Assembly: GCA_036320915.1 (NCBI GenBank)
Contig: JAXBDG010000012.1
Coordinates: forward strand, 124,001-188,000
Direction: 5' to 3'
From: Linnemannia elongata
Lineage: Eukaryota; Mortierellomycota; Mortierellomycetes; Mortierellales; Mortierellaceae
Length of the DNA: 64,000 nucleotides
Under the pieces are notes generated by a model, which had not been told where the DNA came from, made no database searches, and saw nothing but the letters and a program-made list of their open reading frames with translations. The translations under genes were made by a program, and so were the position numbers. Positions 5,830 to 63,012 of the stretch are shown here, piece by piece; within the stretch, counting starts at the first letter, position 1; the number at the start of each line of letters is the position of its first letter.

Positions 5830-7692
5830 ATGACTGAACCCAAAAACCTCAAACCTGCATCCCAACGCAACACAACCCCCAACATAACCTTGTTAGAGAG
5901 GCTACATCGTCTCCAACAGTGGCTCTCTGACTGTGACACCTGTCGAACCGTATCTGGCTGTGAACTTTCAATAGCAGAGTACGAGCGAGCTCATGGCTGG
6001 ACATCTCACACCATCGAACGGCTTCTGAAGGACAGAGAAATGTTGGAGGCTGTGGATCCCGAGTTTGCCAATAAACCAGGGCTCTGACCGCCTTTATATA
6101 TATGGTTAGACCTTGTCAATTATGAGAATTTTGTTATACAATCCACATGTAATTGACAAGGTCTAGCCATAAAACATAGAAGGCGGTCAGAGCCCTGCAA
6201 TAAACGACGCCGGGCTGTTAAACGTCCATTTTACCCTGTAGAGGTCGTCCTAGTTGACTTGATCAAGGACATTCGGTCACGACACGTACCGGTGGATACG
6301 CTCCTCTTGAGGGCACTGGCTCAAGACTTTTATACAGTACTGGAGAGTCGAATGGGTTTTATGCCCTTCCCGCGCCCTGCCTTTGGTGGCTCATGGGTGG
6401 AAAGCTTCAAGAAGGCGTGGGGCCTGGATTTTCACAAGACGAAAGGTGAGGCGGGTTCAGTGGACTTGGCTCTGATTGCGGGCGATGTTGAGCGACTCAA
6501 GACCATTATTGCCGACTATCCCTTGGAGGATGTTTATAATGCCGACGAGACCGGCCTGTTCCTTCAGGCATTATCTCCCTGGACACTCGACTTTGGTCGA
6601 CAACCCGGTACCAAGTCTTCCTCGACCCGCGTATCTATCTTATTTTGTGTCAATTCGACTGGCACAGACAAGAGAAAGCCTTTTGTTCTAAGTATGTAAT
6701 CTGTAGCTTGCTATGATTAATGGTATGAGTAATATCCGCAACAGTTGAATCTAATATTTTGTAATTATTTAATTTTAATTAAAGGCAGCTCTCTCCCAAA
6801 TGGGTTCAAGACTGCCAAAGGTGCTTCTTTACGCAGCCAGGTTGATGTACTTCCATGGAAGCCGGCTCAGGATGCTGAGCAAGGATGGGGTAGTGGCTGG
6901 AGGGATGAGGTTGTTACAAAGGGCAAAGACAGGAAAAAACGGACGAGGACACAAAGACCGGATTACATGAACGCAGAAGCATTTTTGGCGTGGCTGCGCC
7001 ATACTCATCAGGATATTACGGCCAAGGATCCTGACAGGAGAATTCTTCTGTTGGTGGACAATTGCAGGGCACATACGGTTGCAATGCAATCACATAAGGA
7101 TTTCTCCAGCATCAGGATAGAGGGGTTGCCACCTAACTCTACGTCTGTCACACAGCCCCTGGATGCCGGGGTCATTGCCGATTTCAAGCGCCGCTATCGC
7201 CACCATGTCGCCAGCCGCGCTTATGAAAACAGTCTGCGCACGGGTGATAGGGCTGAAGCCAAAGTCTCGAATTTCGAGGGCTGGGAACTCATTGTTCGAG
7301 CATGGAAAGATGTTAAGCCGATGTCCATCAGGGATTGCTTTGCTCATGTCCCAATTCTGGATGACGTCCAGAAAAAGGAGTTGAGGACCGAGGACAGGAT
7401 TGATCCGGATATATATAACGCTATCACTGATGCATTCCAGGATATGACCATTCGGGCGTCTATGATGGATCAGGATCCGTTGAAGACATTGGAACGAACC
7501 TTTCCTGGAAGCTCTGGAGTAGCTTTTTTTCAATCAACTCAAACGACCAATCTCACTGCAGAATGCATCAGGACTGAGCGGGATTACTATACACAGCTCA
7601 GCACGTGTCGCGTCATACGATACGATCGGTCGACTCTTAGAGTGATCGATCGACTCTTGGCACTTGGGCGCAGTTTGTCTTCGCCCAAGTAA
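5830..7692 (+). pseudogene. pogo/Tigger-like DDE transposase, interrupted by a MITE
   Basis: The first segment, 5830-6076 (MTEPKNLKPASQ start), is an N-terminal helix-turn-helix region. The frame hits a TGA at 6085-6087 inside the MITE and resumes in the same phase at 6206, so removing the MITE and one target copy reconnects it. 6206-6691 holds the rest of the CENP-B-type DNA-binding region and the first catalytic Asp in YNADETGLF. An intron is likely at 6692-6784 (GTATGT to AAAG). The last segment carries the second Asp in LLLVDNCRAH and the third in TSVTQPLDAGVIADF, the DDE_1 pattern of pogo, Tigger and Fot1. With the MITE in place the transposase should be dead. The frame ends at TAA 7690-7692, but a GTAAAC donor at 7689 may splice it to the next segment. 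Confidence 0.88.
6077..6197 (+). mobile_element. hAT-type MITE, 121 bp, with 8-bp target duplication
   Basis: The ends are inverted copies of CAGGGCTCTGACCGCC, and homology continues inward through the GGTTAGACCTTGTCAATTA region, making a hairpin. The flanks are identical 8-mers, CAATAAAC at 6069-6076 and again at 6198-6205. An 8-bp duplication and a CAGGG end are hallmarks of hAT elements. It is too short to code for anything, so it would have been mobilised by a hAT transposase encoded elsewhere. Confidence 0.93.
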
Positions 7693-7874
7693 ACAATTAA
7701 TTAGCATAGCCACGTAAAGATATATATATGTAGTTTGTACCCAGATAGTTTAATCCTTACCTAGTAACTCGAATACACTTTGTCATAACACCTTGCCTCT
7801 CTCCCATTGAAAACCATCTTCCCCCACGCATCCCACTTCCAGCCTCTGCCTTGAGAAAGGTCAACCTCGCCTAG

Positions 7875-8667
7875 TGTCCTAGTCTTGATTCGCGACAGCA
7901 CGCTTCTGGATGGGTCTACTTTTCTCAACGATATCATTACTGAGCAAAAGAAGAATCGGTCTTTTATGCAGTGCTTTGATGTGGAGGAGAGAACAGTGCC
8001 GCTCGACGAACTTTGCCCTGACGACGATGATACCGACGATGAAGACTACGGCCTCGACTCTACAACTACGCAACAACCTGAGACATCGATTCTATCGCCA
8101 GACACGCACGTTTCACCGCAAGGAACACCCGGTTCCAACTCGGCTACAGCATCGTTGCCGATCCAGACAGCAATCAAGGCGGAGGAGGATATGCTTGTAT
8201 CGACCAATGGAGCGATGTTCTTGGCTTCGGAGACGAGTACAGCGCCGCATGGATCGAAGAAGAGAGATCTTCAAACCAGGAAGCAATCCTATTCATGGCA
8301 TGTGGGGGATCTGTGTTCTTCCGACATCTCTGACCCCGACTTTTATCAGTATGATGAGGATGAGAGCTTGGACGAGTCAGGAAGCGAGGATGAACGGATT
8401 GATGTTTTCCATCGAGCTGCTAAGCATCTGCAGGGCGATGAATACAAAACCGTCCGACATGCTCTAGATGTTGCTGCTGAGAAACTAGTCAGTCCTGCAA
8501 TTGGGTTTCCACCACCAGGATTCGCTAAAGAGTATCGCAGCAGACAGCGCAAGAGAATGTTGGAGGTGCACAAGCTTGCGGAGGACGATCAAATGATTCA
8601 AGAAAAGTTTGCACATGCGTTCAAAATACAGAGGCTGGACCTGTCACATGACCAAAAAACTGAATAA
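7875..8667 (+). CDS. Acidic protein of the transposon; probable last transposase exon
   Basis: About 263 codons without an in-frame ATG near the start, so it is more likely an exon than a separate gene. A donor GTAAAC at 7689 and an acceptor CCTAG ending at 7874 would join it in frame to the transposase (intron of 186 nt). The segment has acidic clusters (DDDDTDDEDYG, DEDESLDESGSEDE) and a basic/helical end with RSRQRKRMLEVHKL. The last 17 codons lie inside the right inverted repeat, so transposon end and protein C-terminus are under joint constraint. No domain was recognised. The alternative is an independent accessory ORF starting at a non-AUG codon. Confidence 0.55.
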
Positions 8668-22681: not shown

Positions 22682-23153
22682 GATGGAGAGGAGGGAAGGA
22701 AGGGAGGGACGGGATGAAGGAGCAGAGGGTGCAAGAAGAGAAGGGGATGAAAGATGTGCGGTTGGAGTGAGAATGAAGAAAAGAAAAAAAAAAAAGAGCT
22801 TAAACAAGATGATGATGAAAAAAGAGCATGCATCACACCCACACACACATCCAAGCAAAAAGTAACGGTTTTTTTTTTTTTTATTTTTCATCCCCCGCTC
22901 CCTCCGCCCTGGCCAATAAGGATAGTCGAAGGTTGTTCTTCCAACTTTGAAAACAAAAAAGGGAATACTTTATATCCATCCTAAGATGTCTCCACTCTTT
23001 TTTACGTGTTCATTGCAGGACAATAAGCCACTGAATCTATTGGGCTGCAGGACAATTGGCGCCAAAATGACGTCACCGAGGTCGCGTCATCGTGAAACCA
23101 ATCCCCACAATCCGTCACTAATGCGTGGTGTCGCACACGCGTAAAATTCTAGT
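22682..23153. other. Intergenic with homopolymer runs
   Basis: Contains an A-run near 22786, a T-run at 22869-22882 and a palindromic TGACGTCA near 23068, a CREB/ATF-type site by sequence only. No gene is seen. Confidence 0.4.
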
Positions 23154-26100
23154 CTAGGCTCGTGTCGATTTCCCACGCCTTCCCTGATCCTGACTGGAGG
23201 CGGCCATGGTTCTCTTGCGACGTCCTGGGGCTCGATCGGCGGAGGTGCTGCTGTTGGCCACACTGCTCGAAGTTGTGCTGGATCCCTCGTCAGAGCTAGC
23301 CTTCCAGGGATATGTACCATCCGCGTTGATAGGCTGGAGGTAATCCGGCCTCTCATGCCTCACCAGGTGTCCTAGAGCGATCTTGCACATGTTCTCGGCA
23401 GCCATGACATCTCTATGATGAAAGATCTGACAGTGGAAGCAGTAGAAGATCCGTAAGGTCACTTGTGCGACAAAGTGGGTGCACCTCGGACACTTCTTCG
23501 ACGTATAGTACTCGTTCAGTCCTACAACCACATATCCTAACGATCGCGCCTAAAATTGTGAATAAAATCATGTTAGTATTTTTTTTTTTTTTTTCATTCA
23601 ACGACATTCACTTACAGTGCTTTGAATCAAAGTTATCAATAAAACAGGCCTACCTTCTGAACGAAATACGAAAGAAAAGTCGAGTGTAGCGACGAGAGCC
23701 TGGACTTGCTTGAGAATTGCCCGAGACCAACGCCAATTAGGATCGGATCTGTGCTCTTGTTATCTTCCACACGCCGACCCAGACTACCGCCAACAATGCC
23801 GAGCAGACTCTCCGCGATGGCTTGGTACTCTGCTTGCCGCGCCCGCCTCATGTCCCAATGATGTCTCTGATACCGATGGTCGTCGCCAGAATAGAACTTT
23901 TTCAGTCGTTGCTCAACCTGCTCAAGCTCTCTCACATACTCAACAACGCTCGCACCTTGTCCTCGAAGGGGTGGTAGATGGGTCTCGATGTACGCAATGG
24001 AGTCGTCCTCCTCGCCTTGTAGTGTAGTCAGTTTCTGATTCTCGAGCCACCTTCTAAAGCGAAATGTTGGCTGATACACAGCTTTCTGTTTCACCGCCAA
24101 GTTATAGAAGGCAGGTTTCGATAGGGTCACGAGCGAATCCGTTACTGGGGGTTGCGCGGAGGTGAAGGTGGAGGCTGACGCGGGAACTGGATTCAAGGTT
24201 GTTGTCCATTGGCTAGCGGGGCTGGTCGATTCCTGATTGGTGGTGACGATTCCGTCCATGCTGGAGCCCTCCTCAGCCTTCTCCTTGCCATCCAGGCCAT
24301 TGGGCAAATATGCAAATGCGCCAACTACGCATGCCTGGCCCCCGTCTAAAGTGAGAATCTTCATCCTGTCCATATCTTTGCCAGGCCAAAGCTCTCTGAT
24401 ATCCTGCTCGCTCCTAATCACGTTCCTGATTTCCTGAAGGAAACTGTTGGTCCCAGCAACGGTTGTTGTGATTCTTGAGGGCATATCCTCCTCGGCTAAC
24501 CTTTTGAAGCGAGCATCCTGCCGTTCTCGTAACTTGAAAGTTAGAACTTGTACCAAAAGCCATCCGTTCGGATCGATCCTTGCGGGATGTAGCCGCCTTG
24601 GTGATAGTCCCTTGGCTTGGTCTCTTCAACTAGCTTCAAATGATCTCGTATCTGGTCCAAGGAGATCAGACTAATGGCCCCGCGATGACCAGCCTTGCGC
24701 TTTTGACGGTTTGACAGTCCAACTGGATCAATGTCTGAGATGAAATGCTTGATAATAACCCCAGGCTCTCGACCTCCAATCCAGTCCTCGAGATCCTTAA
24801 TAGATGTGAGAGTGGTAATGTCTTCGTCCAAGAGGGCCAGCTCGACCAATCGCTGCTTCAACAAAGGTCGCTTCCAAAAGAACGCAGCCAACTCACGTTC
24901 TGAGAAAGTCACAAACGGTTGCTTCGAGGACGTGACGGGGGCGAGACGCCAGCTGTTCGGAATGAGTTCGTTGAGGGCAAGGTAGTTTTCGGCGGCCGAG
25001 ATGTTTTCCTGAATCCGGATATCGATGTGGGCTTCTATTCGTCCCTTGTCCTTCGAAGCTTTGACCTACAGTAAAAAGTCAAGTATTAGCAATAAACTTT
25101 ATAGTAAAAAACTTCAGTGCATTCTTGTTCGCACCACTTGTATCCTTACCTGATCGTGCAAAAGGTGGGAGCCGTTATTATACATCTTCTTCAGTTCCAC
25201 AGAAAGTTGTTCTGCGACGGACCGCACCAGAGTGCTCGCTGAGAACAGCATTGTTTCGTTTAGCTCGCTCCGATTTCTACAGATGTCGAAGAGTTGAAGC
25301 CCTACCAAGATGTTGATGAAAGTGTTGACGGATTTGCCGATTTTGGAGTTCTTGTCTGGAAGATTTCTTGAGTACAGGTACGTCAGGAAAGACCGAAGGA
25401 ACATGGAGTGTTTGTTGTCCTTCCTTTCTGCATCCAAGTCGCCTGAATCCTCCTGGATATCGTCGCCGTCGGCGTCGGCGTCATCACACTTGTTGGTCAA
25501 GGGCTCAATCCTCCCACACAGATAATCCAAAGTATCTCGCTCGTCCACTGTCACCGCATCCCGCCGTGCCTCCAACCGCTCCGACTCCAACATGGTCTTG
25601 CCTGCTTTCCTCAGTTCCTGTCGCTTAGACTCCTCCGCGGCCTTCATACGGATCTGCAACATCTCCAGAAACGCACCAATGAGGCGTTGAGCCTTTCTCT
25701 TGATATCCACTGCTAGCGCTGAGCCCTCGTTGATACAGTTGATCACCTCAAGCTGTAGATCAGGCCGATCGATCAAAGCTCGTTCAACGTTGGTTTTCAA
25801 AGTACCGACCTCCAGCGATGATATGGGGTGGTGTCAGCCGAGAGACCTAATGAGACTCTGCTTGCCCTTCTCTGCGTTCGATTTCGGTCCCTCATCGGAT
25901 GACGTCTTTTTCTGGGTCTTCTTCGCCTTCGCATCCTTCTTTTTGCTGTCCTTCTTGGTGCTGCTGGAGGAGGTGTCGTCGGGGGACTCGGGAACCTTCT
26001 TGGGCGGTTTCCAAACAAGTTGCTTGGCCTTGGGTGGGGGCTCATGAGCCAACTTCCCTTGTCGCTCCTTGAAGGAAAATCGCTGACGATGTCGAGGTAT

Positions 26101-27492
26101 CCGTGTTCTTGTTAATGGTGGATGACTATGGTCTTGCGGATTCGAAGATGTCGAACCAGAAGGCTCCAAACTAGCAATGGATGGCTGCTGAAGGAAGGAT
26201 TCAGAGTTCTTGGTCACCGGTGCTGGGGATTCGATAGTCCGATACCGATTAAAAGATCTCGGAACTCGCAATCGTGCGATAGCATCGTTGGAGGATCTAT
26301 CAATTTTTTTTAAGAAATACAAACATGATGAGGTACGATTCACACATATAGATTGGTCTCGATTGGCGTAACAGTAAATAGTTACCTGGGCTGAGCTCCC
26401 CGTATTTGACTCTGTTTGTGTTGATCATATCGCATGCAGAAATCCTGAAATCGGACCTGTAGTTGCTCGAACATGATCTGAGAACCGGGCCGGGATCCAT
26501 CAGTTTCAAGCCTGGTTTGTTGGAGATCCACAAAGACTCTGGTCGAGTTGGCGAAGTCCTGATTGTTGGTGTTTTTTGAGATAACCCGGTTGTCAGATAG
26601 ATAACCCAACACAATGTCCTTTGGGTCTATTAAGTAACGCAAGATATCAACCACGGTCAGAGCTTCATCTGAAAAAGAAACCAATATCAATGGATAAAAA
26701 ATTTCCCACTTGATCATTACCTGCACGGTCGATTGACTTGATAATAGAAAAATTAGTCGCAGGGCCGAGGGAGTGAATGTTCTTGTTATAGTCGTTACGA
26801 CTCACAGCCGCCAGAGCAGTCAACTGGGAACGAGAGACGCCAAGAGCTTTCAAAAGATCTGGAACGTTGTACACGTGGATGAGACCTCTGGATATGGGAC
26901 GCCATAGAGTTCGGATGGAGGTGTACGCCATCATGTCCGAGTCCCTAGAGATAACAATGTCGTCTGGCTGCGCATCGATCGCAATGGCCAAGTCCGCTTC
27001 GGTGTCGGCAAGTTTAACAGTCCAGCCCGCGTTCTGCATGTACTGAGCAAATCCCGAGCGACTTTCCCGAGACCAGTAAAAAGACGAGGCCAGGCTCGAC
27101 CGAACATCAACAAAGTGATGTTTGCTAATGCGGAGACCGTTGTCCAGACGGGAGTCAAGAGTGTCCAGGGCTGTGGTGGTGCGTTCTAGTGCTCTGTCCC
27201 GTACTCTCTCTCGCTCGGCGGCTGTGTAGCTCTTTTCCACTGCCTAATAGCCGTCGATGTAGAGTGACATATCCAGGGAAGACCCATACCGACGGACTTC
27301 CTCCTCGAGCATGCGGTGTGCGACATCTGGTGGATTGTTGGAGTAATTGTTGCGAATGACCTGGTAGCATGTTCCGAGGACATCAAGTCTGCGATGTTTG
27401 TCTGGAGCGATTTTGGCGATGATCGACTGGTACAATAAAGCAGGGTTGTAACCCTTGCGTCGTATAAATGGGAACCAAAAAGATATACCCAT
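23154..27492 (-). pseudogene. XPG/FEN1-type nuclease fused to a Fanzor (TnpB-like) nuclease, with lesions
   Basis: Five exons join by good splice sites: 27492-26721, 26668-26386, 26296-25150, 25065-23654 and 23549-23154, about 1336 residues. The N-terminal part reads as an XPG/FEN1 5' nuclease: MGISFWFPF, RRLDVLGTCYQVI, SLYIDGY, TEADLAIAID, SRDSDMMAY and SRNDYNKNIHSLG supply each metal-binding acid known in FEN1. A Ser/Lys-rich linker follows. The C-terminal part is Fanzor-like: RuvC-I TLDGGQACVVGAF, the GVGLGQFSSKSR region, LNEYYTSKKCPRC, FYCFHC and HHRDVMAAENM (RuvC-III). Lesions are TAG at 27246-27244 next to the conserved DG, TGA at 25836-25834 in the linker, and a one-base loss in a T-run near 24560. 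The summed exons, 4010 nt, are one short of a codon multiple. The copy is probably dead, unless sequencing error explains the lesions. Confidence 0.78.
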
Positions 27493-28280
27493 AGCGGCTG
27501 TTGCGGGCTCATGGGAGGAAGAAAGGAAAGAAAGAGGAGAGAGAGTTCTTTATTGTGTACGCGCTCAATTTATATGAGATGTTTACCAGTTGATACTTGC
27601 AGGTCGTATCAACTGTATGTTCGATCACGTCACCCAGACGAGACAGTATAAAGATCAGCTATGGGAGCGAGTCATCTCGCACAGGGAAATCGGCTACAGA
27701 CAAAAATAAGCTTAGCTTCTCTTTGGAGACGATACTTTCGCCACAGTTCCTTCTTTAGTGCAGAGGTAGGACTGAAAAGAGAAAGAGGCTGATTTAGTGG
27801 CCAAATAGGCCAAAGCATTCGAGGACAGCAAGGCAGAGTTAATGGCCCTTCTTGAGAAGATATACCATGCACTCGAGGCTAAAATGAAAAGAAAGTGCTC
27901 GTTACAGTACCTCCGAGAAACAGTAGCTTTGCTACACAGCGCCTATCTTCAAGTCAAACGCGTAAATAAGAGTGGTGCTGGACGAATAACTACTGTATTG
28001 TGTCAAATGATCTCATTGAGCCGACTTTCATTGTATTAGGTGTCAAATGAAAGTAAAATCAATCCATATTAGGAAAGATTTCATGCTTAGCTTCAGCCAA
28101 TAGAATTATGGCGTCCATTGTCCTGCACCCTCTATCTGCGGTGACGTAAGTTTGGGGCCAAATGGTCGTTTTCCACTATTGCAAAGCAGATAAAAGGATC
28201 CAATGAATCGTTTCTCTTGTTTCGTTGCTTCGTAGTGATTGACTCCGCCGACCGACAACTCAACTCCAAAGCCGCCCATC
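27493..28280. other. Intergenic; promoter of the fusion gene and of RPB7
   Basis: A short helical frame at about 27806-27995 (AKAFEDSKAELMALLEKIYH, then coil-like sequence) looks coding, but it has no start of its own and only a possible upstream acceptor AAATAG. It could be a gene relic. A GATAAAAGG near 28190 sits upstream of RPB7. GTTGATAC ... GTATCAAC near 27589-27613 is a small inverted repeat. Confidence 0.35.
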
Positions 28281-29414
28281 ATGTTCTTCCTGGTACGGAC
28301 ACATTCTCTGGAACGCGCCTTTGCACACAGGAAGCTGGGAATCAACAAAGGTGGACAAGCAACGATGAGGCACAAAAAGCGAGCAGGATGATGGCCATCA
28401 AGGATAGAGAGAGAGAGAGAAATGAGTGGCGAAGCAGACATCTATTTGTTCCCTGTCCTCTGTGGCGAAGGCATGAAGCAAGAAGGGCTGATCAACAGAG
28501 ACGAGAAAGACAACTGACCCCTGTTTGTTACTCTTCTTTACTTTCCTCGCTTCTTTACTTCTACTTCTATATCAACTCAACCGTGGAAACCACCTCTGCC
28601 TTTTCTCTGCACAAATATACAACAACAAACCTTGGACGCGACAACCACACCATATCAACATAACGCACTCGACAACAACATCATGCACGCAACATAGCGT
28701 AACTTGTCGCATACGATCAACTTGCACCCGTCCTACTATGGACCCCACATGAAAGAGTTCCTTATGAGGAACCTCCACGGAGACGTCGAGGGAACTTGCT
28801 CAGGAAGAGTCGGATTCATCATCTGCGTCCTCACCATCACCAACATCTCTCCCGGGAAAGTCCTGCCCGGATCGGGACTCGCAGAATTTGTTGTCCACTA
28901 CCAGGCAATCGTATTCAAGCCCTACAAGGGTGAAGTTGTCGATGCTATTGTAACTAGTGTCAATCAGATTGGATTCTTTGCGGATGTTGGTCCCTTGCAG
29001 GTCTTTGTTGCCCAGAAGCTGATGCCGAGTGATTTCAAGTTTGATTCGAACGGACCATGCTATCGCGGCGATGATCAGGTACCTTGGCCCTTTGTCTCTG
29101 TTGTTGACGTATCTGTGACTGGACAACGTTAGTAGGAAAATGGAGACACAGGAACACAGGACACTCATTTCTCATCGCCTTTGTGTGTTTTCGTTGATAA
29201 TAGATGATTGAGAAGAACGGACAAGTGCGTCTCAAAATTGTCGGTCTCAAGCATCAAGCAACGCAGATTGTAAGTTGTTTTGTTTATCTTTTCATGCGAC
29301 CGATGAACATGGTTTGTGGTGGCAAGCGTTACTAACTAACTACTGTTATCTCGCTTGAATAAATAGAATGCTGTCGGAACGATAAAGGAAGATTACTTGG
29401 GACAGATTCAATAA
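28281..29414 (+). CDS. RPB7: RNA polymerase II subunit RPB7
   Basis: Four exons: 28281-28292, 28698-29078, 29204-29269 and 29367-29414, giving 168 residues; the family is usually about 170. The first exon codes only MFFL. Joined to RNLSHTINLHPSYYGP it matches the conserved N-terminus of RPB7. Further matches are EGTCSGRVGFIICVLTI, HYQAIVFKPYKGEVVDAIVT, GPLQVFVAQKLMPSDFKFD, NGQVRLKIVGLK and the end KEDYLGQIQ. RPB7 pairs with RPB4 as the stalk of RNA polymerase II, with an N-terminal tip domain and a C-terminal OB/S1 fold that contacts nascent RNA. The first intron (405 nt) is long for this window. Confidence 0.95.
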
Positions 29415-49112: not shown

Positions 49113-49564
49113 TGAAGTCGTCTGCCATGAGTTTATCTCTCCAATATTGTAAATTAACATTAGAAGGAACCTCAGAAAGCCTTCCCGCTCTGCAAGTTCG
49201 ACCCTTTGTAGTATGATTTAGGATCGAAAAGATCTATCCGCATTCAACTAAAAATGGCACAAGGCGGTAATCGTCGCGTTGTAGCACGGGTTCTGACTTA
49301 GAGGCGTTCAACCATAACCCCGACGGATGATAGCTTCGGGCCATTGCCTGCTTAGGCAGGCCCAATACCAATTATCCGAACGAACGCTTCCTCTCATACT
49401 AAGCAGTAGGTTAAAGCTAACCTGTTTCATGACGGAGTCTTGTTCTCTATTATTGGGTGAACAATCTAATACGTAATGAATTCTGCTTCCGTTGAATAGG
49501 AAGAGCCGACATTGAAGGATCAAAAAGCAATGTTGCTATGAACCTTAGGCTGTCACAGGCCAGT
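49113..49564 (-). pseudogene. Large-subunit rRNA 3' fragment, copy A (truncated)
   Basis: On the minus strand the sequence runs from AACTGGCCTGTGACAGCC through ATGTCGGCTCTTCCTAT, GGATTGTTCACCC, a sarcin-ricin-like AGTATGAGAGGAAGC, TTCGGATAATTGG, GAACGCCTCTAAGTCAGAAC and onward. This is the order of the last part of 25S/28S rRNA. Changes at near-invariant sites (for example in the sarcin-ricin loop) show it is not a functional gene. Similarity to copy B stops after GACGACTT, about 70 nt before the rRNA end. Confidence 0.85.
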
Positions 49565-50462
49565 TGTAATCCCTACAATCAATTTACTGGCACCACTTCC
49601 TCAATATCCGCCACACCTCAATCCTTCCCCCCCCCCCGCTAGAACGCTAGAACATAGTCCTATGCTCCTTTGAATCTGTTATTCTTTCTTGTCTCTTTCC
49701 TTGTTTCTTGTTTCCTTGTTTTTTTTTTCTTTTTTATTTTCATTTTTCTCTTTCGATCTCTCTTTTTTTGCCTTTTGACTTTTTGTTCTTCTTTTGTTGT
49801 TGTTGTCCTTCATTGGTGTTGTGTTTTCGCCTTTTGTTTTGCTCTATCCACTTGTTTTCCTATTCATTATCTGAGCCCTCACTAAACTTGGTCATGTACC
49901 CTCACCATTGTCTGTACACGCGACTATGTGCGTTTGTCTGGTGTCTGTGTCTGTATCTATGCTTGTACCTGTGTCTGTATCTGAATCTGTGTATGTGTTT
50001 GTGTATGTCTGCGTGTGTCTACGTGTGTCTGTGTGTGTCTGTGTGTGTCTGTGTGTGTCTGTGTGTGTGGAGAATGTCTCTCTCGAGAGAATCCATGGTA
50101 ATGGAGGTGGTGAAAGTCAAAGTGGAGAGGAATGGAGTGAAGAACAATAGAGAGGGAGCGGATGTGGTCGGTGAATTGAGTGCAGAAAATACGAGAGTAA
50201 TGGCGAAAAGGATAATGAGTGGAAGAGTCGAAGTAAGAAAGGGTGTGTGAACGCGAGGAGTGGTGGTGAAGGAAGTGATGGAAAAAGGAAAGAGATTATG
50301 AGTAAAGGATGGAAACAAATCAAGCTACTTGAGAGCAAAAATACAACCAACTCGGTAACACACCATTAAGAATGTAAAAGTGCACTTTTATTGAGTGTCA
50401 AGTAGACAGAGGGAACTGCAGTGAATGTTTAGCCCCTCTGCCTTTTGGAACAGTCCTCGTCG
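49565..50462. other. Intergenic, T-rich then TG-repeat; no gene
   Basis: 49670-49860 is T-rich. From about 49985 to 50068 the plus strand is a degenerate TGTGTGTCTG repeat. Frames here are low complexity. Confidence 0.5.
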
Positions 50463-61872: not shown

Positions 61873-62411
61873 TAATCTATAGAACAATGGGCTTAATCTC
61901 AGCAGATCGTAGCGACAAGGCTACTCTACTGCTTACAATACCCCGTTCAATTAAAGTCGTCTGCAATGGATTTATCTCTTCCAATATTTGAAATTAACAT
62001 TAGCAGGAACCTCACAAAGCCTTTCCGCTCTGCAAGATAACCCCACGTAGTATGATTCAGGATCCGAAGATCTATTCGTATTCAACTAAAAATCGGAAAA
62101 GGCGGTAATCGTCGCGTTCTAGCACGGGTTCTAACTTAGAGGCGTTCAGCCATAACCCAACGGATGATAGCTTCGGGCCATTGCATGCTCAGGCAGGCCC
62201 AAATATCAATTATCCGAATGAACGGTTCCTCTCGTATTAAGCAGTAGGCTGAAACTAACCTGTCTCATGACGGTCTAACCTCGAGGTCTTGTTCCCTATT
62301 AGTGGGTGAACAATCTAGTACTTACTGAATTCTGCTTCAGTACGATAGGAACCGACATCGAAGGATCGAAATGCAACGTCGCTATGAACGCTTGGCTGTC
62401 ACAAGCCAGTT
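61873..62411 (-). pseudogene. Large-subunit rRNA 3' fragment, copy B (reaches the rRNA end)
   Basis: On the minus strand it runs from AACTGGCTTGTGACAGCC to the LSU terminus: AATACGAGAGGAACCGTTCA (sarcin-ricin region), GAACGCCTCTAAGT, GGGGTATTGTAAGCAGTAGA, then GTAGCCTTGTCGCTACGATC and TGCTGAGATTAAGCCCATTG. It starts at the same rRNA base as copy A, and no rRNA sequence precedes it. A base at the conserved AGTACGAGAGG position and small losses argue for a pseudogene. The downstream flank is CT-rich (61820-61850). Confidence 0.88.
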
Positions 62412-63012
62412 ATTTGGTTCCCTCCTACTCTTTCCTTTAATTCGACTCCCTCATACTCACAGTCTCACCTTGTTGCAGTATGAATAAAAGAGACAGAAAA
62501 AGTAGAAGTACCTGAATAACAAGGATGAGACGGAGGTTGAATGAGGCGGGGAGTATGAACAAAGAAACGAAAAGGCGTAGAGGTGCTCACATAAAAAGAA
62601 AGTGAGGAGTTGGCATATGCAAGTGTGAATAAATGAAACAGAGAGAAAGAGAGAGAGAGTGGAGGTGCTTGAATAAAACAAGGATGTGATGGAGGTTGAA
62701 AAAGCCGTGGAATCAAAATAGGAAGGCGAAAAGCATAAAGGTACGCGGATAAAAAGGGGGTACGAGGCCACGAAGGTCAAATCTTAAGCAGCTATGCAAC
62801 TTAAATTGGTAGGAGACTGAAATGAGATTTCCTGGTATTTACCTCTGGTACCTTGAGAGCTACACATGCCCAATCGACTCTTAAGCAACCAACAAAATAG
62901 ATGATAAACAGCCACGCCAAATAGTATAAAAGTATGAGAATTTTATTCCCTTTTTGTTTCTTCCCCTTACACCCCTTCAATTTTGCACCAGGTATGTTAT
63001 CCTCCACCCTTA
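62412..63012. repeat. Degenerate tandem repeat block, purine-rich (main part 62485-62770)
   Basis: A unit of about 170 bp appears twice: AAGGATGAGACGGAGGTTGA at 62521 and AAGGATGTGATGGAGGTTGA at 62680, with similar AAAGAGACAGA/GAAACAGAGAG segments before each. The rest of the stretch has no recognised feature. Confidence 0.55.

Follow-up and report, generated by a model that had tools for sequence, protein, structure and literature searches.

Fanzors occur in many transposon types (available text of PMC3627910 and PMC10711439), and their biological role is stated as unknown in the accessible part of PMC10432273. The described systems closest to the locus considered here are the Fanzor1 proteins SpuFz1, GtFz1 and PpFz1. 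We analyzed a stretch of 64,000 nucleotides, henceforth the window, from the fungus Linnemannia elongata (GenBank assembly GCA_036320915.1, contig JAXBDG010000012.1, positions 124,001 to 188,000), in which a mobile element bears a gene predicted to join an XPG/FEN1-like 5′ nuclease to a Fanzor-type protein (XPG-Fanzor). The fused protein resembles Fanzor1 in its fold, its TNB/zinc-finger RuvC domain and a computed candidate RNA at the 3′ end. It departs from Fanzor1 in adding an N-terminal FEN1-like nuclease and a long basic linker, in a RuvC1 motif that is mostly DLG, DAG or DGG, in a distance from RuvC-I to the glutamate of about 240 residues (in the intact copy L010) as against 120-160 in the pattern given in the available text of PMC10711439, and in its association with a 7-base target motif. 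PpFz1 of Parasitella is likewise a fungal Fanzor1 with an added domain; there it is a cyclophilin-binding RuvC insertion, whereas in XPG-Fanzor it is an N-terminal nuclease (PMC11423790, as far as its accessible text goes). Compared to the FEN1, EXO1 and XPG-Rad2 nucleases, the XPG half is transposon-borne, is fused to a Cas12-type nuclease and in the window exon matches the XPG_I profile only below threshold. The element itself is like the Mutator-like elements (MULEs), whose target duplications span 8-11 bp, in a SWIM-type transposase gene that it probably once carried, terminal inverted repeats (TIRs) and an 8-bp duplication; it differs from them in having XPG-Fanzor as a second gene, in its fixed insertion motif and in the absence of the transposase from the window copy and its near copies. 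With the TnpB systems of bacterial IS200/IS605 elements it shares a motif beside the left end, a candidate RNA that would run past the right end and an empty site that would consist of motif and target; those systems, however, use TnpA and make no target-site duplications, which the present element has. In the open-licence literature we found no description of a Fanzor/TnpB fusion to XPG or FEN1, in line with the preliminary description of this DNA, which was made from the sequence alone and knew of no such fusion to a flap endonuclease; a description elsewhere is possible. Nor did that literature yield a paper on Fanzors in Mortierella or on XPG in its transposable elements. The novelty lies in the XPG/FEN1-Fanzor fusion, Fanzors with extra domains and Fanzors in transposons being already known.

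The preliminary description placed both parts on the minus strand in five exons running from 27492 to 23154, and this is where we find them. It understated the damage, however, in allowing a single base: exon 1 has an in-frame TAG, exon 3 an in-frame TGA, and there is a frameshift/stop near 24541 (Table 1). With two in-frame stops and one frameshift, the window copy (L009) of this mobile element is dead, being unable to encode the whole protein. The single long frame that had been proposed stands in intact copies, which measure 1322-1328 codons; the earlier figure of about 1336 codons results from the choice of the nearer intron-1 acceptor, whereas the deposited protein P0034 and relatives use the further one.

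A search of the L. elongata assembly (51 Mb, 32 contigs) recovered the region at four places with 96-100% identity, at seven more with about 65-67% identity, and as decayed pieces; the second subfamily differs by 35% in coding DNA from that of the window copy. Excising the same four GT-AG introns leaves one open frame in 7 of these 11 copies of subfamilies 1 and 2, namely L010 and L011 in the window-copy subfamily and L013, L014, L016, L018 and L019 in the second, with 1322 codons in all but L019 (1328). As to the other four, L009 and L017 are broken, L015 is without a start, and L012 has early stops and does not show the first donor sequence that was looked for. Some intact copies at different loci are nearly identical, differing at no more than 2 and 5 of their 3966 coding positions, which shows recent movement. 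Beyond these copies, 92 rows of the own-genome scan (36 of 154 candidates scored) were grouped into 27 Fanzor loci, 25 of which are preceded on their own strand by an XPG exon at a distance of 1.5-2.2 kb; this contradicts the possibility, raised in the preliminary description, that the two halves are always separate genes. Approached from the other half, 33 XPG loci remained from 38 rows once a row that repeated a locus already counted and four matches of lower strength had been set aside. A scored Fanzor part lies downstream at 25 of these, and a third-subfamily 3′ end 3.7-3.9 kb away at four of the remaining eight.

Outside this genome a whole-protein search returned 30 matches (31 in the alignment), from genera all of which we take to be Mortierellaceae. 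The same-architecture homologs in related fungi that the preliminary description had suggested looking for are thus at hand, near-full-length, in other Mortierellaceae. Models spanning both parts include P0001, P0004, P0005, P0007, P0009, P0010, P0011, P0031 and P0032, some both-part models being without up to about the first 75 residues; in other species these are single deposited models of about 1300 amino acids. In eight deposited both-part proteins of 1208-1358 amino acids (set A1), TNB was detected in all eight and XPG_I in seven (E<=0.1). The deposited L. elongata models split the copies into P0034 (731 amino acids, XPG side), which reaches the end of exon 3, and P0064 (708 amino acids, Fanzor side), which begins within exon 3, the two overlapping there. 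The open frame in intact paralogs and the independently annotated homologs agree with the original proposal of one gene encoding both nucleases, and, judged from these sequences, the XPG-Fanzor fusion is real and recurs in related fungi. We rejected chance resemblance on the agreement of folds, catalytic acids and selection, an assembly artefact on the presence of three subfamilies at many loci and in other species, and an error of gene calling on the overlap of P0034 and P0064. Separately, a contig of 1,278 bases assigned to Apophysomyces sp. carries a partial Fanzor part of the family (P0149), a case of either transfer or contamination.

Profile searches of each half, which the preliminary description had recommended, gave a clear result for the Fanzor side, where the last exon of the window copy matches the Cas12f1-like TNB domain (Pfam PF07282) above cut-off with E 4.7e-12, and a sub-threshold one for the XPG side, where exon 1 reaches 19.4 bits (E 0.0015) with XPG_I against a cut-off of 24.9. 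P0004 scores 23.5 bits against the same cut-off, and the best E-value among the seven matching members is 2.7e-6. In fold searches the first 257 residues, modeled from an intact paralog, show a FEN1/EXO1 fold, at about 14-16% identity to the FEN1 and EXO1 structures in the top rows, and the last ~800 residues, modeled from the relative P0008, a Fanzor1 fold. In an alignment of 30 sequences (A3) D80, E165, D167 and D186 are invariant and D184 and D234 nearly so, which bears out the metal-binding acids of the FEN1/XPG fold read in the N-terminal ~260 residues. From sequence and model the N-terminal domain appears to be a FEN1-like flap nuclease, and we infer that it cuts flaps.

For the Fanzor-like half, the first five Foldseek matches and the first seven VIA rows of the relative P0008 are all Fanzor1 structures; the fold and the TNB match agree with the Fanzor/TnpB RuvC motifs and CxxC pairs noted in the C-terminal part. 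Among 163 proteins, 39 of the 42 that fit the zinc-finger part display an alternative RuvC glutamate six residues before a CxxC, followed by a further CxxC and an aspartate; an alternative-glutamate/zinc-finger RuvC pattern is described for Fanzors in the available text of PMC10711439. The middle residue of RuvC1, readable in 113 of the 163, is L in 51, A in 31, G in 26, P in 3 and R and M in one each. The Fanzor part is a Cas12-like, probably RNA-guided DNA cutter by type. DPG at RuvC1 is seen in three relatives (P0056, P0086 and P0094), which might link the family to typical Fanzors. In viral contigs, the Fanzor-core pattern matched 16 stretches, none of which was confirmed. Purifying selection acts on both nuclease halves: when L010 is compared with L013, the XPG half shows pN 0.22 and a saturated pS of 0.82, and dN/dS is 0.16 in the N-terminal part of the Fanzor half, 0.07 in RuvC/TNB and 0.30 in the linker.

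The boundaries of the element are set by its copies. Where the 5′ end is intact, it starts at the equivalent of window 28130; it is shorter or diverged in L011, L015 and L017. Copies of subfamilies 1 and 2 cease matching at window 23043, L014 being three bases longer. The pattern of the TIRs, which are about 22 bp long, matches 42 times in the own genome (<=2 mismatches) as against 0 for the reversed control, and at the same tolerance no convergent TIR pair less than 4.6 kb apart, i.e., no short derivative without the fused gene, was found there. A more distant third subfamily (L050 and relatives) has the same 5′ end and gene order and spans about 5.7 kb where uninterrupted. An exact 8-bp target duplication flanks 10 of 17 element-end pairs (6 of 8 and 4 of 9 in two sets), with one further pair showing a 9-bp match and another a single-base difference. 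Two peculiarities of third-subfamily ends may be recorded: the 3′ untranslated region of one copy contains another repeat (L050:6840-6895) that matches at least 26 places, and at L075/L070 (C28:2219048) a third-subfamily 3′ end is directly followed by an L021-like one (TCTATTCTCCTGCAGCC), these being nested or chimeric ends.

The fused gene has no transposase domain (Pfam, window exons and the eight deposited proteins). At C23:420465 (the L036/L084 locus), exons that read leftward lie just within a 5′ end and encode a SWIM zinc finger (22.2 bits against a cut-off of 19.6); beyond them comes a sub-threshold match to a MULE transposase domain. The last-exon open reading frame (ORF) of this MULE/SWIM gene matches 20 rows, 19 of which lie at 15 element 5′ ends, the window copy included; the 5′ ends with this tail belong to subfamilies 1 and 3 and to related ends. 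The joined MULE pieces also match C2:453892-455087 and C4:907379-907570, each in divergent orientation 1.3-1.4 kb from an XPG exon, as well as C13 and other places without a listed XPG; NCBIfam profiles gave no match for three transposase pieces. On this sequence evidence, two divergent genes, one for a MULE-type transposase and one for XPG-Fanzor, were probably present in the ancestral element, and the small copies have lost the former. As the element's transposase we rejected the L034, L038 and L039 ORFs, which lie beside 5′ ends but are DDE_1 genes or their kin, of three types with copies elsewhere. With 16 of 20 DDE_1-type loci having no TIR match, third-subfamily 3′ end or XPG within 8 kb, the other four are taken as nested or neighboring insertions. 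In the C8 copy (L021, C8:282708-284969), too, a DDE_1 gene (PF03184) separates the XPG exon from the piece with the 5′ end; given its five near-identical copies elsewhere, it too is taken as nested.

At the opposite end, aligning the last 125 bases of 13 distinct copies revealed a consensus structure of 30 pairs. In it 98.0% of the cells are paired, both sides have changed in 21 cells, and the covariation score is 0.261; no shuffle out of 500 attained any of these three values, and slid controls were far lower. In the longest stem the terminal repeat pairs with an internal stretch, and both sides co-vary between subfamilies. The consensus energy is -21.6 kcal/mol on the gene strand and -4.9 kcal/mol on the antisense strand, column shuffles average -5.9 (sd 2.7) with 0 of 100 as low as the sense consensus, and the sense structure has 60 G-U versus 2 A-C cells, a count that is biased to the sense strand because the fold allows G-U. 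On these asymmetries we rejected a mere DNA palindrome. In an Rfam scan of the window nothing matched close to the element. For Fanzor1, too, guide RNAs that take in the TIR have been reported (PMC10711439, available text). We regard the 3′ end, a predicted covarying sense-strand RNA that stops at the element boundary, as a candidate omega-RNA.

The insertion sites share a motif. We considered 19 5′-type ends, obtained from 26 by leaving out six degenerate or unrelated-looking ones (L059, L063, L065, L067, L068 and L069) and dropping L052 as too short (20 to 19). Positions -17 to -11 before the element read (A/C)CGTCAC: position -17 is A or C in 19/19, and CGTCAC is exact at -16 in 10 of the insertions and at -17 in one. 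At the CGTCAC frequency of the window, the chance of 10/19 is about 5e-33, though these same ends had first drawn attention to the motif. All three subfamilies have it, and it ends 10 bp upstream of the element, a distance made up of two free bases and the 8-bp duplication; this gap places the right-flank sequence two bases past the motif in the empty site, like a target-adjacent motif (TAM) and target in TnpB/Fanzor systems. By this analogy, we infer that ACGTCAC is a TAM. The heptamer is also present within the element's own 3′ end (23070-23076, plus strand), inside the RNA hairpin, and the core GTGACGT is invariant in the 13 aligned 3′ ends.

We propose, with a probability of roughly 0.55, that the dead copy in the window stems from a DNA transposon of Mortierellaceae, probably a Mutator-like one, in which a Fanzor-RNA complex would cut empty sites, the flap nuclease would trim the ends and repair would copy the element back. 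The ancestral plan would comprise a TIR, a leftward MULE-type transposase gene, a rightward FEN1-Fanzor1 gene, a 3′ omega-RNA and a TIR, with many copies since left with no more of the transposase gene than its tail and moved in trans by a MULE-type enzyme. The Fanzor part would bind the 3′-end RNA, whose guide would be the flank past the right end, starting with the 8-bp duplication, while ACGTCAC, 2 bp ahead of the guide-matching sequence in the empty site, would serve as TAM. Cleavage would then fall behind ACGTCACNN at element-free sites, e.g., after excision, where the tethered flap nuclease might trim 5′ flaps or a displaced strand and thereby favor copy-back of the element from the sister or homologous copy. 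The fused gene has stayed intact in copies that lack the transposase, in keeping with a protein that benefits the element encoding it. A more ambitious version, in which the MULE transposase and the FEN1-Fanzor/RNA cooperate, with ACGTCAC as TAM serving both site choice and excision refill and the flap nuclease processing the ends, we consider unlikely; if true, it would amount to RNA-guided transposon homing with built-in end processing in a eukaryotic nuclease-assisted transposon. Retention of a Fanzor fused to a flap nuclease in young transposase-less copies, alongside a motif and an RNA candidate, makes the role of Fanzors in spread directly testable. For genome engineering, too, it is of interest that a candidate RNA-guided cutter is naturally paired with a 5′ nuclease that would process the ends.

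Several observations weigh against this proposal. DPG at RuvC1, near exclusive in Fanzors according to the available text of PMC10711439, is seen in 3 of the 113 readable proteins, unlike known Fanzors, and of 26 models aligned, 21 retain the RuvC glutamate. The XPG and Fanzor distance matrices are weakly correlated (rho 0.36 in 21 models, 15 of 999 permutations being as high; rho 0.39 in 14 continuous models, 48 of 1999). The RNA covariation rests on few independent changes: 165 of 500 shuffles gave as many pairs (5) with both sides changed, and 498 of 500 as many pair types (16). L013 and L018 taken singly fold better antisense, and against simple shuffles z is only -0.3 to -1.7 for L010, L012 and L013. 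As for the mover, the MULE transposase domain at the L036/L084 locus stays below cut-off (25.5 versus 27.6 bits, E 1.9e-5) and that match depends on four joined ORF pieces, a single piece giving E 0.011; moreover, the C23 MULE gene is 8 kb from the nearest divergent XPG, so that one shared element is not assertable there. Five of the 17 end pairs, the window copy among them, have no recognizable duplication, and the motif may reflect a transposase or host factor and not a TAM.

This last point leads to the most serious competitor, to which we accord somewhat less than even odds: ACGTCAC would be picked by the MULE-type transposase, or host bZIP proteins would tether the element at ATF/CREB-like sites (cf. 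Tf1), and XPG-Fanzor may then act in retention with another TAM or be an undecayed passenger. In its favor, TGACGTCA is the classical CRE, the window copy is inserted in an intergenic region whose neighbors, an RPB7-like and a glycosyltransferase-61 (GT61)-like gene, are divergent, and ACGTCAC recurs within the element near its 3′ terminus, which would suit a protein-binding site. Its spacing, however, is exact to the base (10/19 at -16, one at -17), while tethering usually gives looser spacing, and the selection on both nuclease halves speaks against a passenger.

Far less credible are two readings that do away with the transposase or with the fusion. The latter holds that the element makes two separate proteins and that the fused frame is an effect of annotation; the split L. 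elongata models favor it, yet these share part of exon 3, proteins of ~1300 amino acids are modeled in one piece in other species, and in seven copies no exon junction interrupts the frame, which renders it improbable. Even less can be said for XPG-Fanzor being itself the transposase with no need of another enzyme. It is the only long gene found in window-type copies and is intact in 7/11, but a divergent MULE/SWIM-type gene adjoins three XPG-Fanzor loci and its tail stands at the left end of many copies; furthermore, we know of no TnpB or Fanzor that transposes DNA, and deem this reading very improbable. The features of the window copy are gathered in Table 1.

Table 1. Features of the window copy of the XPG-Fanzor element (window positions)
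Feature	Position	Strand	Basis or remark
Mobile element, window copy, TIRs at both ends	23043..28130	-	5088 bp; matches at other loci end here; TIR pattern at C4:147043 and C4:152130
5′ TIR, GGGTGCAGGACAATGGACGCCA	28109..28130	-	Pattern search, <=2 mismatches
3′ TIR, reads GGCTGCAGGACAATTGGCGCCA on plus strand	23043..23064	+	Common end point of subfamilies 1 and 2
Target motif ACGTCAC, 5′ flank, ends 10 bp before element	28141..28147	-	Motif placement in window
Tail remnant (last exon) of divergent MULE-like transposase gene, with stops	27645..27985	+	L036 last-exon ORF matches C4:151755-151985 and C4:151645-151785
Exon 1, predicted XPG/FEN1-like nuclease domain, broken by TAG at 27244-27246	26721..27492	-	XPG_I E 0.0015; intact-paralog model resembles FEN1/EXO1
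Exon 2; acceptor per deposited models, nearer one possible at 26668	26386..26626	-	Splice reconstruction
Exon 3, linker (basic, of low complexity) and beginning of the Fanzor part, broken by TGA at 25834-25836	25150..26296	-	Splice reconstruction
Exon 4, Fanzor part as far as RuvC; frameshift/stop near 24541	23654..25065	-	Frame analysis; fold of relative P0008
Exon 5, TNB domain with alternative RuvC glutamate, zinc finger and final RuvC aspartate; stop codon	23154..23549	-	PF07282 E 4.7e-12
Candidate omega-RNA scaffold (consensus-structure core), ends at element boundary	23043..23113	-	Covariation and sense/antisense folding; downstream flank would be the guide

The genes on either side of the element are the GT61-like one, from 20218 to about 22680 on the minus strand (sub-threshold, E 9.9e-5), and the RPB7-like one, at about 28700-29130 on the plus strand. 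Elsewhere in the window there are pieces of a DDE_1-type transposase gene of a separate transposon (6784-8622, plus strand, matching C4:130784-132622) and eukaryotic large-subunit rRNA fragments (Rfam RF02543) at 61873-62438, 49419-49565 and 49286-49407, all on the minus strand.

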